From positions 124,001 to 188,000 of the forward strand of contig QKIY01000035.1 in NCBI GenBank assembly GCA_003250975.1: 64,000 nucleotides of DNA, given 5' to 3'. A program made the translations under genes and the position numbers. The notes beneath the pieces were generated by a model. It did no database searches. It was not told the DNA's origin and was given only the letters and a program-made list of their open reading frames with translations. Each line of letters begins with the position of its first letter. Positions within the stretch are counted from its first letter, which is position 1. Positions 50,256 through 57,439 of this stretch are shown here, piece by piece. This DNA comes from Gammaproteobacteria bacterium (lineage in GTDB: Bacteria; Pseudomonadota; Gammaproteobacteria; Eutrophobiales; Eutrophobiaceae).

Positions 50256-50340
50256 GCCGATGTGGTGGAATTGGTAGACACGCTATCTTGAGGGGGTAGT
50301 GCCGCAAGGCGTGACGGTTCGAATCCGTCCATCGGCACCA
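50256..50340 (+). tRNA. tRNA-Leu (anticodon GAG)
   Basis: An 85-base tRNA including an encoded CCA. Acceptor stem GCCGATG pairs with CATCGGC (50330-50336), and the discriminator A is at 50337. The anticodon stem is CTATC/GGTAG with loop TTGAGGG, placing GAG at 50290-50292. A class II variable arm (TGCCGCAAGGCGT) and the T-arm GGTTCGAATCC are present. It is nearly the same as E. coli tRNA-Leu(GAG) and decodes CUU/CUC. Confidence 0.97.
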
Positions 50341-50401
50341 ATTATCTGTATTTGCACAAATCAGTAATCGTCATTTGTATCAACGACCTTCATTCAGAAT
50401 T

Positions 50402-50451
50402 ATTAATGTCAACATTAATTAATGTATTCTTGAAATTGACAAGGTTATAAT
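50402..50451 (+). promoter_or_regulatory. Palindromic operator-like array and -10 box before yiaW
   Basis: ATTAATGT (50402-50409), ACATTAAT (50412-50419) and ATTAATGT again (50418-50425) form two overlapping palindromes in one 24-base block. A perfect TATAAT follows at 50446-50451, so the block covers the place where a -35 should be (no good -35 is seen). This is what an activator or repressor site for a weak promoter looks like. The downstream genes are yiaW and yiaV; AAGGAGAGGG provides their ribosome-binding site. Confidence 0.55.
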
Positions 50452-50498
50452 TTAACGGGTAATTTCAATAACCTATTTACAAGGAGAGGGCAGGGGGT

Positions 50499-50885
50499 AT
50501 GTTCCTAGATTACTTTGCACTTGGTCTTTTGTTTTTTGTGATGATCGTGCTCTTCTACGGCATTATTGCCATCCATGACATCCCCTATGAAATTGCCAAA
50601 CACCGCAATCACCCTCACCAGGATGCTATTCACGTTGCAGGCTGGGTCAGCCTGTTTACATTGCATGTAATCTGGCCATTTCTTTGGATATGGGCAACAC
50701 TGTATCGATCAGATCGGGGCTGGGGGTTTTCTGACAACCGCTCTGTTCAGGATCATGTCAGTCAATTAGAAAGTGAGGTCGCCAATTTGACGGAGCGATT
50801 GAATGCCTATGAAGATGTAATCCAGCAAAATACGGATAACCTAGCTAAAACCTTGCCTCATACCTTTGATGGGGAAAACAAATAA
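50499..50885 (+). CDS. yiaW: DUF3302 inner-membrane protein, YiaW homologue
   Basis: A 128-residue protein strongly resembling E. coli YiaW: MFLDYFALG, HDIPYEIAKHRNHPHQDAIH and AGWVSLFTLHVIWPFLWIWA. Two membrane helices (about 5-27 and 48-67) are followed by a C-terminal coiled-coil (LESEVANLTERLNAYEDV). It is always found beside a YiaV-like membrane-fusion protein and is presumed to be its membrane partner; neither has a proven substrate. The stop overlaps the next ATG by one base. Confidence 0.92.
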   Translation: MFLDYFALGLLFFVMIVLFYGIIAIHDIPYEIAKHRNHPHQDAIHVAGWVSLFTLHVIWPFLWIWATLYRSDRGWGFSDNRSVQDHVSQLESEVANLTERLNAYEDVIQQNTDNLAKTLPHTFDGENK

Positions 50886-52027
50886 TGGATCTGCTGCTTA
50901 TTCTGACCTATATAGCTATCTGCGTAGCTGTCTTCAAGATATTCAAAATCCCACTTAACAAGTGGACAGTCCCGACTGCGGCACTGGGCGGCGTATTCTT
51001 AATCGGTTCACTCATTTTATTAATGAATTACAACCATCCTTATTCAGAAATCAGCCGGGTCTATTTTGTTACCATCCCCATCGTCCCTGAAGTCAGCGGG
51101 AGGGTCATAGAAGTTCCAGTCAAGGGGAATACCAGGGTTAACAAAGGAGAAGTTCTGTTTCAAATCGATCCAACCCCTTATGAGGCAATTGTGGAGCAAA
51201 AAAAGGCTCAACTCGCAGAAGCAAGCCAGTCATCTGTTCCACAGCTCAAGGCAAATCTTGATGTTGCCGAGGCGGCAGTAGCACGTGCTGAGGCGGAAGT
51301 CCTGCAGGCTAAAAAAGAGCTTGATCGCAGAAAGGAACTGGTAAAAACACATGTGATAGCACAACGTGAGGTTGATCGCTGGCAGAAGGAGTATGATGCG
51401 CGGAGTGCGATCCTGCGCGAGGCCCAGGCTACCAGAAAACAGGCACTCACGGAATTCGAATCAGAAATTGGCGGGGAGAATCCCATCGTAGCCCAAATAT
51501 ATGCCGAACTGGACAGGGCGCAATATGACCTGGAGCAAACCACTGTGCGGGCACCGGCCGATGGATTTGTCACCCAACTGACATTGCGGCCTGGTGTCAG
51601 GGCGGTGTCAATACCACTAAGGCCTGCAATGATATTTGTTAATGATGAGGCAAACTACTATGTTGCCTGGTTCCGCCAAAACAGTTTGTTACGCCTGACT
51701 ATAGGAGCAGAGGCGGAAGTTGCATTTGATGGTATTCCCGGTAAAGTCTTTTCAGGTGAAGTGGAAGATGTGTTACCTGTTATGTCTGAAGGTCAGGTAC
51801 AGCCCAGCGGTGACATGATTAATTTTACCCGCGCACCTTATCCGGGCCGTATCCCTGTACTGATTCACATTACTGATCCTGACTATGTACAATATCTGGA
51901 TAAGGTTCCAGGTGGGGCCTTTGCGCAAACGGCTATTTACACTGAGCATATGCATCATGTGGCAATAATGCGAAAGGTCTTGCTAAGAATGGCTGCCTGG
52001 ATGAATTACATTTTTCCTTTTCATTAA
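50885..52027 (+). CDS. yiaV: HlyD/EmrA-type membrane fusion protein, YiaV homologue
   Basis: A 380-residue periplasmic adaptor anchored by N-terminal hydrophobic segments (about 1-20 and 28-48). The barrel-sandwich (PIVPEVSGRVIEVPVKGNTRVNKGEVLFQID) is split by a long coiled-coil hairpin (about 95-200). DLEQTTVRAPADGFVTQL is the second half-motif. The C-terminal HHVAIMRKVLLRMAAWMNYI matches the E. coli YiaV end. No outer-membrane channel or MFS pump is adjacent, as in E. coli, where the pair lies near aldB. The exported substrate is unknown. Confidence 0.92.
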   Translation: MDLLLILTYIAICVAVFKIFKIPLNKWTVPTAALGGVFLIGSLILLMNYNHPYSEISRVYFVTIPIVPEVSGRVIEVPVKGNTRVNKGEVLFQIDPTPYEAIVEQKKAQLAEASQSSVPQLKANLDVAEAAVARAEAEVLQAKKELDRRKELVKTHVIAQREVDRWQKEYDARSAILREAQATRKQALTEFESEIGGENPIVAQIYAELDRAQYDLEQTTVRAPADGFVTQLTLRPGVRAVSIPLRPAMIFVNDEANYYVAWFRQNSLLRLTIGAEAEVAFDGIPGKVFSGEVEDVLPVMSEGQVQPSGDMINFTRAPYPGRIPVLIHITDPDYVQYLDKVPGGAFAQTAIYTEHMHHVAIMRKVLLRMAAWMNYIFPFH

Positions 52028-52044
52028 TTCAAAACTATTGAAGG

Positions 52045-52515
52045 TTATTCCTTCATTATCTCAGGTTTACCAGGTCCGATTGCACCGGTAGAACGGGCTT
52101 TCAGATAGCGGTATACATATTCAATATGATCAGCCACGATAGGATTATGTTTCCATTCTGGCATGGGCATCCCTGTTTCTTCTCCTAATTCGTGTTTTTG
52201 AATCTCTTTTAGAAAGGCATCCCGTACGATTGCCCGGCTTTCTGCCCTGGACTCTTCAACTGGGACCTCAAGCAGGTAACGGTTCAGTACCTTTAACTCA
52301 AACTCTTTCTCGCTCAGTCGTTGTACGCTTTCGGTAAGGTCCGGAGCGAGATCTGAGCCTACACCGCCAACGCCGTGACAGGTTACACAGGTATCATGAT
52401 AAAGGCGCCAACCGACGAATGTCTCAGAATCAACCTGATCTGCCCCTGAGACCGGGACAGTATAAAGCAGACACAGGGAAAGAGATGCCAGTAATGTATT
52501 ACGATGATTGATCAC
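52045..52515 (-). CDS. Secreted monohaem cytochrome c resembling PQQ-alcohol-dehydrogenase partners
   Basis: A 156-residue periplasmic cytochrome with a signal peptide (1-25, ending VSGA), haem motif CVTCH at 43-47 and axial Met in GMPMPEW (116 or 118). The segment after the haem, GSDLAPDLTESVQRLS, and the C-terminal YRYLKARSTGAIGPGKP (about 135-151) resemble cytochromes c550 that accept electrons from PQQ alcohol dehydrogenases. Compared with them it has extra residues around 80-112. The start is GTG 52515 with GAGGAG 8 bases upstream. No dehydrogenase gene is nearby. The partner assignment is inference. Confidence 0.85.
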   Translation of the reverse strand: MINHRNTLLASLSLCLLYTVPVSGADQVDSETFVGWRLYHDTCVTCHGVGGVGSDLAPDLTESVQRLSEKEFELKVLNRYLLEVPVEESRAESRAIVRDAFLKEIQKHELGEETGMPMPEWKHNPIVADHIEYVYRYLKARSTGAIGPGKPEIMKE

Positions 52516-52596
52516 TCCATATTCTCCTCATATTGGATTCTCTCTATTAGAGAGCAAATGTTTCTAATTGTTCAATCTATATGCAAATTTCCATAA

Positions 52597-52626
52597 TCAG
52601 GAAATCGAGTTCCTGATCTGGATCAG
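52597..52626. promoter_or_regulatory. Palindrome and FNR/DNR-like box upstream of the cytochrome gene
   Basis: TCAGGAA-ATCGAG-TTCCTGA (52597-52616) is a perfect 7+7 inverted repeat. Overlapping it, CTGAT-CTGG-ATCAG (52613-52626) is a perfect palindrome matching the FNR/ANR/DNR consensus TTGAT-N4-ATCAA in 8 of 10 positions (only the outer base of each half differs). The box is centred about 104 bases before the cytochrome c start codon and is the only such match I noticed. It suggests oxygen- or NO-dependent control of the cytochrome. Confidence 0.45.
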
Positions 52627-52719
52627 CACGCATTTATTTTTTTACTGAATACGGCTGAATTTTAATCCAAATCAGACGGTTGGAAATAAATAGGTTACCA
52701 GATATGGTTATGCGCGAGC

Positions 52720-55700
52720 TTATAGCTCGTGCATTAGTTCGTCGTATAATGCCATGGTCTCGGCAGACGGTTCTGATTTTAATACCGATGTGAATATTTT
52801 CTTGCAGCGTAAATAAACTTCAATAGCATCCTCATTACGTTTCAGCTTACGATAACAATGCATTAGTCTTCTATAGAAACTTTCAGTCAGCCTCTCGACT
52901 TCCAGTACTCTTTCATAGCAATCAATAGCTTTTTCCCAGTTGCCTTTATCTTCCCAGTAACGGGCTATTTTGCTCATGCAGCGTAAATATTTGTTCTTGA
53001 TTTCTTCGCGTGGATCTTCATACCATGGTTTGTCAGGCTCATCGGCCATGAAGTGACCTCGATATAAATGTTTTAATCTCTCTGTTGATTTCAGCAGGAT
53101 ATCAGTATCAATACTTGTTTCGGATACAAAAATCTGGTCAATTTCGGAAATTGTGTTATCGAATGCCCATAGATCAACCCAGAAATATTGCTGATTCAGG
53201 CTCAGTTTGCTGTCCTGGACAATAATGGCCCTGTCTTCCCCCAGTATCTTGCGCAATCTATGAATGGTCGTTGTGAGTGAACGGTAGGAATATTCGCTAT
53301 CGACGCCGGGCCAGAGTGAAGTGGCAAGTATTTCCTCATTGACATTCGTTCCGCCATGAGCAATCAGTGCCTTTAACAGTTCAACTGGTTTGCGTTGAAG
53401 TTTTTTTACCAGGCTGAAGCTTTGTTCGTTTTTCAAAATTCTGCATTGGCCGAGGGTATATATTTTGAATAACCATGGCCATTCTTCCACAGCTACCGAT
53501 GAAGGAAGAGGAACCAGTTGCCGTTCAGAAATTAAATTTCGAACATACACGGTTTCAATATCGGACTGCAATGCGAACTCACATAGTCTCGACATGATGT
53601 CAGGTTGCCACCAGAGGGCGTGCTTGTAACCATATTCCCTGCCCACTTGCATTGCATATTGCAATGTACTCAGAGCGGAGCGCTTCCTGCCATGCTCCAT
53701 GGCAATATAAGAATACGACAGGAAAGATAAATATCCTAGGGAATGATTTTTAATATTACGCCCCATCTCATGAGCAATCTTGAGATATATAGTACCTTTA
53801 CGTTCATCACCATGCTCAAAAAGAAGTTGTGCCATTGCTATCCTGCAGATTATTTCAAAGAAAGGGTTGCCGATTTCAATGGATAGCCGAAGTGCTTTTT
53901 TCTGGTGTTGAAATGCTTCCAGTTTATCTCCGCTTAACATCGAGAACCATGCGTAGAAATAATAATAGAGACATTGCTCTTGGCGCCGACCTTTCAGTTC
54001 CCCTAATTGAATCTGGCTGATTATCTGTTCCGCGGTATCCAGATCACCATTGCCAAGTGCTGCCCCCAGTCCATTAACCAGCAATTGATAGTTCCAGAAC
54101 AATACACCGGAATTATGAGCAATTTCCAGGCCTTCATTCATTGCCTTTAGGCTGCGATCGCGATCGGCGATCAACATATAAAACATTGACTCGAAGTTTT
54201 TCAGCGTTATCCACTCGAGTGGAGACATTTCAGTTGTTGATGCCAGCTTGTATAATGATTCGATAATTTCATGTGCTTTTGAAAAATATCCATCCCACAT
54301 GTAGGCAACGGCAACCAGGGGTTCAACTGCCTGTCGTATTCTTGGATTTGCAGATTCATGTGATGCCGTATGTGCGCGTTCCACCCAGTTTTCGATATCA
54401 GGATCATCTGGTTGCCGTAAAAGCATTGCCATGAACAGCGATGTTATTACTCGCGCTTCCGTATCCCCTGTAATTACTTCATGTTTCTTCTGCAGAAGTT
54501 GCTTGAGTATATCTACCCATGGATCCAGCAAGGCAAGGTCATCCAGTTCGTAAAGTATTGCATCAATTACGCCCGCACATGCAAGATGTAATCCTTTAAC
54601 ATCCCTTGATTCCAGTTTCATGAACAGCTTGTAAGCCTGTTCATAAAGACGACGGCACTCTCTGAGGGCGAACGGGAAACGGCATGAAGCGAGCCAATAG
54701 ACCAGCCATGGATTATTTTCCATTTTTTCTTTTGGAAGATCCTCCAGCCATTGTGATAAAGTTTCTCTCCTTCCGCTTTCAATCATAACCAGGGCATGAT
54801 TCTGAATAATTTCTTCAACAAGGTCGTAGTCTCTGATGTTTAATAACAGTTCTACTGCATCTTCAGTTTGATCATTTGATTCAAGCAACAATGCAGCAAT
54901 TCTCAATCGTTCAACATTCTCTTTATGCTTTTGCGCCTGCTTGCTTATGGTTAAAAGAAAATCGCGGAAAAGAGGATGGTATTGATAAATAATTTTCTCC
55001 GGAGTCTGTTTTGCGGTTACAAAATAATGATGCCGGTTCAGCTCATTCAGAATATCTGCTGAGGTCTTCTTCCCGGAGATCTCTTCAGCCATTGCAATGG
55101 TCATTTTAGGTAAGCAGGCTGTACTTAATAAAAATTCCTTGGTTTCCTTATCAAATTTCTGGAATATTTCACCAGCCAGGTAATCAAATATAATATGTGG
55201 TGTAAATGTCTCAGGGGTTTCTGATACGAATCCTTCAGTCCTGAAATATTCAAGCATGAGTACAACTCCTGCTGCCCATCCCTGGGTCTTGTCATATAAC
55301 TGGGTAAGGGTTTCTTTGGACAGGTTCAGGCCTATAGATTTGACTATTCCATCGGTTTCCGGCCGTGTCAGGCGCAAATCATCCCAGGATATTATCTGCA
55401 TGTTCTGGCTTGCCCTGTAAATTGCCATGGCTGCAGGTGGTTCACTTCGGCTGATAAAGATTACACAACCATTTATCGGTACTTCAGACAAGGCATACCG
55501 TATAACCTCGTGAAATTCGGAGTGGGCAGGTACAGTGTCATAATTATCAAATACCACTACGAAAGGTGTATTCAGCTTGATGAACAGTTCCCGAAAGTAA
55601 CTCTTGGTGAATGTTTCAAGATCACCGAAATATTCTGGTAAAAATCTTGGAAGTGCCTTTTGGAGTTTTTTGTCGGATTTATCAGCGCCGGGTAAATTGT

Positions 55701-56088
55701 TGCTGACCTGCCCAGCCAGTGTTTCAAATTTTCTAAGAAGGTTTTGAATATAATATGTAGCGTGCTGGGAAATGGTTTCCCCGAACTCGAGTGAGGGATG
55801 AGTTGAGCCGGTTTTCGTTGCATCCTTTAATGCAGCCAGCCCCGTGTAGTAAAAAAAGGTTGCAATATCGGTATCACCCTGATCTACCTGATACCATAAA
55901 TAATCAACATTTCGGTTATCCAAATAATTGGAAAGAAGAGTAGTTTTACCGGAACCCGGGGGCCCCGTTATCCACATAACGGAATTTTCACGGCCTTTAT
56001 CCAGCAGTGAAAATAGCCTTTCTCTGGGATAGATACCCGTCAAGCTGGGCCGGGTGATCTTCGCCAGAGAAGCAATATTCCTTTTCAT
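52720..56088 (-). CDS. STAND-type regulator with C-terminal SARP-like DNA-binding head (BTAD)
   Basis: A 1122-residue predicted transcription activator. The N-terminus resembles MalT (ITRPSLTGIYPRERLFSLLD), with Walker A GPPGSGKTT at 42-50 and VVFDNYDTVP as Walker B. A winged-helix and long superhelical TPR-like region (about 400-860) follow. From about 868 comes an OmpR-type winged helix (KIYTLGQCRILKN, SLWPGVDSEYSYRSLTTTIHRLRKIL), then a bacterial transcriptional activator (BTAD) domain with TPRs (about 970-1120). No LuxR-type helix-turn-helix is present. This is AfsR/SARP content in reverse order. G+C is low. A hairpin (GCGCGAGC/GCTCGTGC) spans the stop codon. Confidence 0.88.
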   Translation of the reverse strand: MKRNIASLAKITRPSLTGIYPRERLFSLLDKGRENSVMWITGPPGSGKTTLLSNYLDNRNVDYLWYQVDQGDTDIATFFYYTGLAALKDATKTGSTHPSLEFGETISQHATYYIQNLLRKFETLAGQVSNNLPGADKSDKKLQKALPRFLPEYFGDLETFTKSYFRELFIKLNTPFVVVFDNYDTVPAHSEFHEVIRYALSEVPINGCVIFISRSEPPAAMAIYRASQNMQIISWDDLRLTRPETDGIVKSIGLNLSKETLTQLYDKTQGWAAGVVLMLEYFRTEGFVSETPETFTPHIIFDYLAGEIFQKFDKETKEFLLSTACLPKMTIAMAEEISGKKTSADILNELNRHHYFVTAKQTPEKIIYQYHPLFRDFLLTISKQAQKHKENVERLRIAALLLESNDQTEDAVELLLNIRDYDLVEEIIQNHALVMIESGRRETLSQWLEDLPKEKMENNPWLVYWLASCRFPFALRECRRLYEQAYKLFMKLESRDVKGLHLACAGVIDAILYELDDLALLDPWVDILKQLLQKKHEVITGDTEARVITSLFMAMLLRQPDDPDIENWVERAHTASHESANPRIRQAVEPLVAVAYMWDGYFSKAHEIIESLYKLASTTEMSPLEWITLKNFESMFYMLIADRDRSLKAMNEGLEIAHNSGVLFWNYQLLVNGLGAALGNGDLDTAEQIISQIQLGELKGRRQEQCLYYYFYAWFSMLSGDKLEAFQHQKKALRLSIEIGNPFFEIICRIAMAQLLFEHGDERKGTIYLKIAHEMGRNIKNHSLGYLSFLSYSYIAMEHGRKRSALSTLQYAMQVGREYGYKHALWWQPDIMSRLCEFALQSDIETVYVRNLISERQLVPLPSSVAVEEWPWLFKIYTLGQCRILKNEQSFSLVKKLQRKPVELLKALIAHGGTNVNEEILATSLWPGVDSEYSYRSLTTTIHRLRKILGEDRAIIVQDSKLSLNQQYFWVDLWAFDNTISEIDQIFVSETSIDTDILLKSTERLKHLYRGHFMADEPDKPWYEDPREEIKNKYLRCMSKIARYWEDKGNWEKAIDCYERVLEVERLTESFYRRLMHCYRKLKRNEDAIEVYLRCKKIFTSVLKSEPSAETMALYDELMHEL

Positions 56089-56333
56089 GTCAAATGATCC
56101 TGCTATTCAATAACTTCGCTGCTGCTGATAAAAAACTGCAGTGATTTCTCCACAATGCCATAGTTCTTTATTACTATTAACTATCTGGGCCGGGTCAACC
56201 TCATATATGTTTGTACTAGCATAATTTGGGTAATATTGCGCGTTTTTTAGGCAATTTGTATGCCGGTTAGCTCAATCTGGCCGGTGTATGTGAAGACCAT
56301 AATCCGGTATTGTCACCTAAAGGAGCCAGATAC

Positions 56334-56630
56334 GTGTTAAGACCTTGTTTCAGGATTTCGAAAGGTGGATTCGTAGCGTCAGGGGTCTTTCTGTCCCTCG
56401 CAGTAGCGGTATTCCTGTGGGTCTTTTTTATAGCCTCAAGGAATCCCGCCGATTCGGGTGAATCGGGGTTACTGCTCTTACCTTTTGCCCTGCCATGGAT
56501 AATGCTGGTCCCTGTTCAATGGTTGGGGCCTATTTCCGGTATAGGCATGATATTTTTCAATGCGTTGATTCTCTATCTTGTCTTTGGCGGTATGCGATTC
56601 GAGAGAGGGCTGGGGGATGATGATAGGTGA
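56334..56630 (+). CDS. Small membrane protein, unknown function
   Basis: A 98-residue protein with three hydrophobic segments (about 10-32, 45-63, 68-88) and a charged C-terminus (MRFERGLGDDDR). GTG 56334 is chosen because AAAGGAG lies 8 bases upstream; a TTG 24 bases earlier would place that site inside the gene. It is divergent from the STAND regulator. I recognise no family. Its coding status is probable but not certain. Confidence 0.55.
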   Translation: MLRPCFRISKGGFVASGVFLSLAVAVFLWVFFIASRNPADSGESGLLLLPFALPWIMLVPVQWLGPISGIGMIFFNALILYLVFGGMRFERGLGDDDR

Positions 56631-56793
56631 CTAGCCGGGGGCCTTTTCATGCTGATTGGCCATACGGGGGGGGTGGTTTCGAGGGACTTGGCCTGGGGTG
56701 TCACACGTTTTTTCAATATGGTTTCCGCGGCTAAAGGCTGTAACAGAGTGAGGCAGAGTGCAACAGTAAAAAATTTGTATTTTTAATCAGGCT

Positions 56794-56816
56794 ATTCAAG
56801 GTTTTTTCCCTTGAAT
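56794..56816. repeat. Perfect 8-bp hairpin in the nuo upstream region
   Basis: ATTCAAGG and CCTTGAAT enclose a 7-base loop of six T and one C, followed by TATTATTTG. It could terminate transcription leaving the 98-residue membrane gene, or be a binding site. The stem is AT-rich, so terminator strength would be low. Confidence 0.4.
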
Positions 56817-56990
56817 TATTATTTGAAATATACAGAAAAAATCCTCGTAGCCTGTGCAAATGTGTCATATATTGGAAACACACTATTTCTCCTGAGTGGG
56901 TATCAAATATAGGCCCGGATTTCAACTTCTGCACGTGTGAATCTGCCAGGAAACCCATAAGATTTAAGTGCCTGACTGCTGCTATCAGGG

Positions 56991-56996
56991 TATAAT
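56991..56996 (+). promoter_or_regulatory. Putative nuo operon -10 box
   Basis: TATAAT lies 75 bases before nuoA. The -35 region at 17 bases is poor (GTGCCT), so an activator would be expected if this is the true promoter. No other good promoter appears between the hairpin at 56794 and nuoA. Confidence 0.35.
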
Positions 56997-57070
56997 TAGC
57001 GGTTGAAAAGCCGTGCTGATATACTCTTCTGGCCGTATAAAATCTCTGGGGTACACCAGACAAACAAACT

Positions 57071-57439
57071 ATGTTGGAAAACTATTTCCCGGTTCTGATT
57101 TTTCTTGCAATGGGTGCAGTGATAGGCATCGTTCTGATCGCTTTGGGGCTTTTACTGGGGCATATCCTGGGGCATGCGCGACCCGACACTGAAAAACAGT
57201 CTCCTTATGAATGCGGGTTTGAGGCATTTGAAGACGCACGGATGAAGTTTGATGTCCGTTATTATCTCGTGGCCATCCTGTTTATCATATTCGACCTGGA
57301 AATCGCCTTCCTTTTTCCTTGGGCGGTTGTTCTGGATAAAATCGGTATGGCGGGTTTCTGGGCCATGATGATTTTCCTTGGTGTGCTTGTTATTGGGTTT
57401 ATATATGAATGGCGTAAAGGTGCACTGGAATGGGAGTAG
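57071..57439 (+). CDS. nuoA: NADH-quinone oxidoreductase subunit A
   Basis: Membrane subunit of complex I. The 122 residues have three helices (about 9-31, 66-87, 95-114) and the conserved acidic loop [41 protein letters not shown]. The gene overlaps nuoB by 10 bases. Confidence 0.97.

Follow-up and report, generated by a model that had tools for sequence, protein, structure and literature searches.

Gene content and borders of the tRNA-Leu(GAG)-nuoA interval

We analyzed a 64,000-nucleotide stretch of contig QKIY01000035.1, hereafter the window, which is part of a 2.3-Mb metagenome-assembled genome (MAG; code G000) of the family Eutrophobiaceae. Our subject is the segment between the gene for tRNA-Leu(GAG) (50256-50340, plus strand), the sole tRNA detected in the window by ARAGORN and Rfam (RF00005), and the start of nuoA at 57071; 6730 bp separate the two. 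An earlier sequence-only reading had described this segment as an AT-rich accessory insert in the secG-tRNA-Leu-nuoA frame, and had proposed its five genes as a regulated export/oxidation module and a candidate for an undescribed system. Comparing the locus with its relatives, we find that the segment is very likely the content of an insertion slot, which recurs between tRNA-Leu(GAG) and nuo in the family and is filled with unrelated accessory genes.

The gene identities of the interval were as the sequence-only reading had given them. Next to the tRNA lies yiaW (50499-50885, plus strand), encoding a DUF3302 membrane protein of 128 residues (PF11742, E 4.6e-42). It overlaps the start of yiaV (50885-52027, plus strand), which encodes a 380-residue HlyD-type periplasmic adaptor resembling EmrA and MdtN, as judged from NCBIfam MdtN/EmrA matches below cut-off and from EmrA structures. 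The minus strand carries a gene for a secreted, XoxG-like, single-haem cytochrome c (52045-52515; haem motif CVTCH, PF13442) and a gene for a regulator of 1122 residues with a MalT-type ATPase, a TPR region, and a winged helix plus BTAD (52720-56088). The fifth open reading frame (ORF; 56310-56630, plus strand) starts with TTG and encodes a putative membrane protein of 106 residues. This orphan had no Pfam, NCBIfam or PHROG match and no relative in the 52 other genomes of the family, and it may not be a gene.

The tRNA forms the left border of the slot. On the right flank, nuoA (57071-57439, plus strand) starts the complex I operon, and a block upstream of nuo (56991-57054, plus strand) is kept in the genome G030, the only congener found, where its 64 bp are 64% identical. 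The block stands ahead of nuoA in both G000 and G030 and so limits the slot, whose right border is to its left. Scanning the five ORFs and an antisense ORF beside nuoA, we obtained no match to integrase or transposase families. No stretch of at least 11 nt from the last 30 nt of the tRNA recurs in the interval, so that there is no direct repeat at the far border. Both results agree with what had been read from the sequence.

Content of the slot in related genomes

We located nuoA in 53 genomes of the family, fetched the upstream region in a subset of them and scanned it for tRNA-Leu(GAG). The tRNA and nuoA shared one contig in 11 genomes (10 relatives and G000), with gaps of 295, 700, 877, 2871, 4452, 6730, 7563, 8580, 8603, 10467 and 11126 bp. 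The frame tpiA-secG-tRNA-Leu(GAG)-X-nuoA recurs in the family; the smallest X measures 295 bp and the largest 11.1 kb. The slot is near-empty in G022 (295 bp), G040 (700 bp) and G025 (877 bp). In G048, a tyrosine integrase (PF00589 and PHROG integrase; L099:7029-8243) lies 155 bp after tRNA-Leu(GAG), a direct sign that this tRNA serves as an attachment site in the family. The near-empty relatives and the G048 integrase confirm that an accessory segment in the window splits a secG-tRNA-Leu-nuoA frame that is otherwise kept.

The filled slots hold different genes. Behind the integrase of G048 stand IS3-like genes, recognized by eye, and then an AcnD-PrpF-like pair; the slot of G038 holds such a pair as well (named by eye from the sequence). 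G037 carries 11 kb of other genes. The slot of G001, from a closely related genus, contains a lone dehydrogenase dependent on pyrroloquinoline quinone (PQQ) (L091:1567-3375), while its homologs in G000 and G030 sit elsewhere in those genomes with 48-50% identity. In the congener G030, we find a 139-residue ORF, the regulator and a pump set of outer-membrane factor, adaptor and RND protein (OMF-MFP-RND). The regulator of G030 has 66% identity to that of G000 and takes the same position and orientation. In G030, yiaV was absent at the threshold used, the small ORF was absent as well, and a weakly similar cytochrome occurs only elsewhere in the genome; the RND pump of G030 is absent from G000. 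The two congeners therefore have the regulator alone in common in the slot. These comparisons show that the content is entirely different from genus to genus and largely different in the two congeners. The proposal of an undescribed system gives way here, since the same slot holds unrelated contents in relatives.

The site is of a known kind, a tRNA-linked slot with cargo turnover. As in tRNA-associated genomic islands, variable genes lie directly 3′ of an intact tRNA, relatives are near-empty, and one relative carries an integrase. It differs from such islands in that the window has neither an integrase nor a flanking direct repeat and carries no more than 6.7 kb of cargo. We claim the locus only as a variable slot and not as an intact integrative element. 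Gene turnover in this family of gammaproteobacteria, which is uncultured and probably methylotrophic, can be read from the slot.

The variable loop and T-arm of tRNA-Leu(GAG) diverge strongly between the two congeners (L062, L061). Past integrations could have replaced the 3′ half of the tRNA, or the differences could be no more than ordinary drift.

Distribution of the five genes

The module proposal holds that a compound, sensed by the regulator, triggers its own export through YiaWV and its oxidation through the cytochrome c. It draws on the adjacency of the five genes and on the common orientation of the regulator and the cytochrome downstream of it. Exporters also stand beside such a regulator in more than one case: the RND pump of G030 is divergent from it, and a homologous regulator in G220 has an RND pump as neighbor. 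We looked for the block in the 53 family genomes and in 274 genomes of the class with the regulator, yiaV and the cytochrome as queries, and with the small ORF in the family only. No second copy of the five-gene block turned up in either set, the outcome by which the sequence-only reading had said its proposal would be refuted. G004 has relatives of the regulator, yiaV and the cytochrome, and there they lie on different contigs.

Taken singly, the genes have distributions of their own. At E 1e-20, YiaV relatives occur in the family only in G004 (51% identity) and G027 (distant), and at E 1e-60 in two genomes of the class sample. The DUF3302-HlyD pair is kept in this order in G004, G265, G269, Sinorhizobium, Rhizobium and Pseudoalteromonas, with DUF3300/DUF2950, SulP and ppk2 as neighbors in the rhizobia, DnaJ in Pseudoalteromonas and an outer-membrane factor in G265. 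Eleven other family genomes have cytochrome relatives (40-53% identity), always as lone genes in unrelated surroundings; the only relative in the class sample, besides the window's own gene, belongs to the same family. The regulator is widespread, with relatives at E 1e-80 in 34 of the 274 class genomes and also in Nitrospirota and Geobacter, amid diverse neighbors. Neither the regulator nor the cytochrome had plasmid relatives at the thresholds used, while those of yiaV sit on large, mostly non-mobilizable replicons.

Within the window, yiaWV and the regulator-cytochrome pair are oriented toward each other, and YiaWV has other neighbors wherever else it is seen. The closer regulator orthologs, those of G279, G063 and G215, are accompanied by neither YiaWV nor the cytochrome, and the congener retains only the regulator. 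We thus consider the five-gene module unlikely. The case illustrates that genes which look convincingly like a cluster can be passengers of one insertion slot with no relation to each other, a fact that comes to light only when relatives are compared.

Base composition of the segment

We sampled about 377 kb of non-N bases from G000 in equal-sized windows as the baseline for G+C content. The insert has 43.6% G+C, compared to a sampled genome mean of 49.2% (standard deviation 3.4%), and in 4.1% of the equal-sized genomic windows the value does not exceed that of the insert. The contrast is real but modest: the insert is indeed lower in G+C, as had been read from hand counts, but the label AT-rich holds only mildly. 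The values per gene are 42.5% for the regulator, 44% for yiaW, 47% for the cytochrome, 48% for yiaV, 49% for the small ORF and 46% for nuoA, and therefore the dip is owed mainly to the regulator, with yiaV, the cytochrome and the small ORF near the value of nuoA. In the congener G030, the regulator is just as poor in G+C (42.7% against about 49%). In the relatives of family f12, the G+C content of the regulator is that of its surroundings.

History of the regulator and proposed assembly of the slot

We built a quick maximum-likelihood tree of 39 regulator members. The regulators of G000 and G030 are sisters with a support of 100; the nearest to them is G279 (family f112), followed by the f12 pair. 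Among regulators of the window's own family (f1), those of G002 and G004 branch with an f88 member at the base of the larger group around these sequences; those of G005, G019 and G021 fall outside it. The DNA-binding domain of the window's regulator shares 78% identity with G030, 67% with G279 and 62-64% with f12. Judging from this tree and these identities, the regulator was already there before the two congeners diverged, and acquisition on the stem of the genus best accounts for its presence.

Could the segment instead have been inherited vertically, with lineage-specific losses, no insertion, and a low G+C content that is mere local variation? The G+C anomaly amounts to only about 1.6 standard deviations, and the regulator does behave vertically within the genus. 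Such a history would need a very large ancestral interval, whose content differs in almost every relative today. It also has to face the integrase at the same tRNA in G048 and a regulator tree that departs from the family. We regard it as highly improbable.

Returning to the recurrent slot, we propose the following order of events. The regulator would have arrived on the stem of the genus, probably brought in at the tRNA by a site-specific integration machinery that has since been lost; yiaWV, the cytochrome and the small ORF would have been gained or exchanged later. The slot genes would then probably work separately. Several points weigh against this account. No attachment-site repeat or integrase is left in G000 or G030, and site-specific entry is therefore inferred from a relative. 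With two genomes of the genus only, differential loss of an ancestral regulator is possible. Most family genomes are fragmented MAGs, and the interval lies on one contig in only 11 of 53. In addition, no 11-bp-period repeat, of the kind described below for f12, was found in the intergenic regions of the window's regulator, leaving no motif that shows its targets.

Architecture and putative operators of the regulator

The MalT model NF003420 aligns through its positions 108-419 with residues 160-467 of the regulator (E 7e-55, a score below cut-off), and the regulator's ATPase matches PDB 8bob with E 7e-25. At the C-terminus lie an OmpR-type winged helix (PF00486, residues 896-953) and a BTAD (PF03704, residues 1007-1118). 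Like MalT, the regulator has an N-terminal ATPase that is followed by a TPR-type sensor region. The LuxR-type helix-turn-helix that ends MalT is missing, and the OmpR-type winged helix and BTAD stand in its place.

The large SARP and SARP-LAL regulators of Streptomyces, such as AfsR and PimR, also combine a winged helix and BTAD with a nucleotide-binding domain and TPRs in about 1000 residues. In the described large SARPs, however, the SARP module is N-terminal (PMC10972967), whereas the window's regulator carries it at the C-terminus together with a MalT-like ATPase. Searching the literature, with incomplete coverage, we found no description of SARPs with a C-terminal module. By analogy with MalT and the SARPs, the regulator would act as an activator that ATP drives and a ligand gates, as in MalT, and that binds DNA via its SARP-type winged helix and BTAD. 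Its likeliest direct targets would be its own promoter and the co-oriented cytochrome gene 205 bp downstream.

Upstream of the regulator ortholog in the f12 genomes G063 and G215, we found a direct repeat of three hexamer copies with an exact 11-bp period (CTTACA-N5 in G063; L157:8053-8080, L158:11339-11366). It stands in the same place in both species (18/18 matches; 0/200 shuffles). An 11-bp period is the known spacing of SARP operators (PMC5930380), and the repeat looks like a SARP operator. A broader proposal, which we put forward tentatively and rate as rather doubtful, is that the regulators form a widespread and apparently undescribed family of reverse-order SARPs, with the MalT-type ATPase and TPRs first and the SARP/BTAD module last, in Pseudomonadota, Nitrospirota and Geobacter. 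Operators of 11-bp period would be their binding sites, and in the genus the regulator would be the fixed part of a slot with exchanged export cargo. Of all the slot genes, the regulator family is most worth following, and the three-copy repeat of f12 makes its DNA recognition directly testable.

Comparing the intergenic regions of G000 and G030 for a shared operator, we found only the nuo promoter block and short matches. Self-BLAST of the regulator-cytochrome gap revealed a 22-bp palindrome (52596-52617), which is a putative operator; as a terminator it was ruled out because it has no T-run. Two further palindromes, at 50402-50425 in the tRNA-yiaW gap and at 52540-52554 in the regulator-cytochrome gap, are putative operators too. 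A relative of the regulator in the MAG D96SM.bin.23 is split into several short ORFs (L011:10001-11638), and this copy looks like a decaying pseudogene.

YiaWV, the cytochrome and PQQ-linked functions

The names yiaW and yiaV are those of the E. coli pair of DUF3302 and HlyD genes. The window's pair agrees with it in families, order and adjoining or overlapping ends, and we see no important difference. The segment contains no cognate transporter gene for YiaV, and we found nothing in the literature on the function of yiaWV. YiaV would be an inner-membrane-anchored adaptor that acts with YiaW and depends on a transporter encoded elsewhere.

The cytochrome scores 63.2 bits against TIGR03874 ('methanol metabolism-related'; cut-off 161.75), and among solved structures XoxG comes closest to it (6onq, E 2e-11), with a match that covers only residues 26-72. 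It resembles the XoxG/TIGR03874 cytochromes in the haem-site stretch, but it falls below the family cut-off and does not stand beside xoxF. It may be an electron carrier from a periplasmic dehydrogenase encoded elsewhere. As a XoxG-like counterpart to the XoxF of this genome it is an unlikely candidate, since its presence does not track XoxF in the family: by our count, XoxF is present in 9 of the 12 genomes that hold the cytochrome and in 28 of the 41 that do not.

Relatives of the regulator adjoin a zinc hydrolase of the quinoprotein-relay type (TIGR04559) in G063/G215 and pqqE in G187 (L157:11644-12672, L162:7223-8344), a possible hint that some members of the regulator family act in connection with PQQ.

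One could then picture the regulator and the XoxG-like cytochrome as the remnant of a PQQ-linked alcohol oxidation module, with the G001 dehydrogenase as the ancestral content of the slot. The PQQ enzyme in the slot of a closely related genus, the XoxG match, the PQQ-related neighbors just named and the XoxF-like dehydrogenase of G000, with its cupredoxin and MoxJ-like genes, all fit this picture. The failure of the cytochrome to track XoxF does not, nor does the placement of the G000 and G030 homologs of the G001 enzyme outside the slot, and PQQ genes are missing around most relatives of the regulator. We judge such a remnant very unlikely.

The genome of G000 encodes two PQQ dehydrogenases. 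On its contig C39 (L225:4039-7689), an XoxF-like PQQ methanol/ethanol dehydrogenase stands with a pseudoazurin-like cupredoxin and a MoxJ-like gene beside formate dehydrogenase, and the same arrangement occurs on contig C84 of G030 (L228). In G030, the XoxF-like locus is adjoined by the gene for subunit C of formylmethanofuran dehydrogenase. XoxF relatives are present in most of the family, which suggests methylotrophy.

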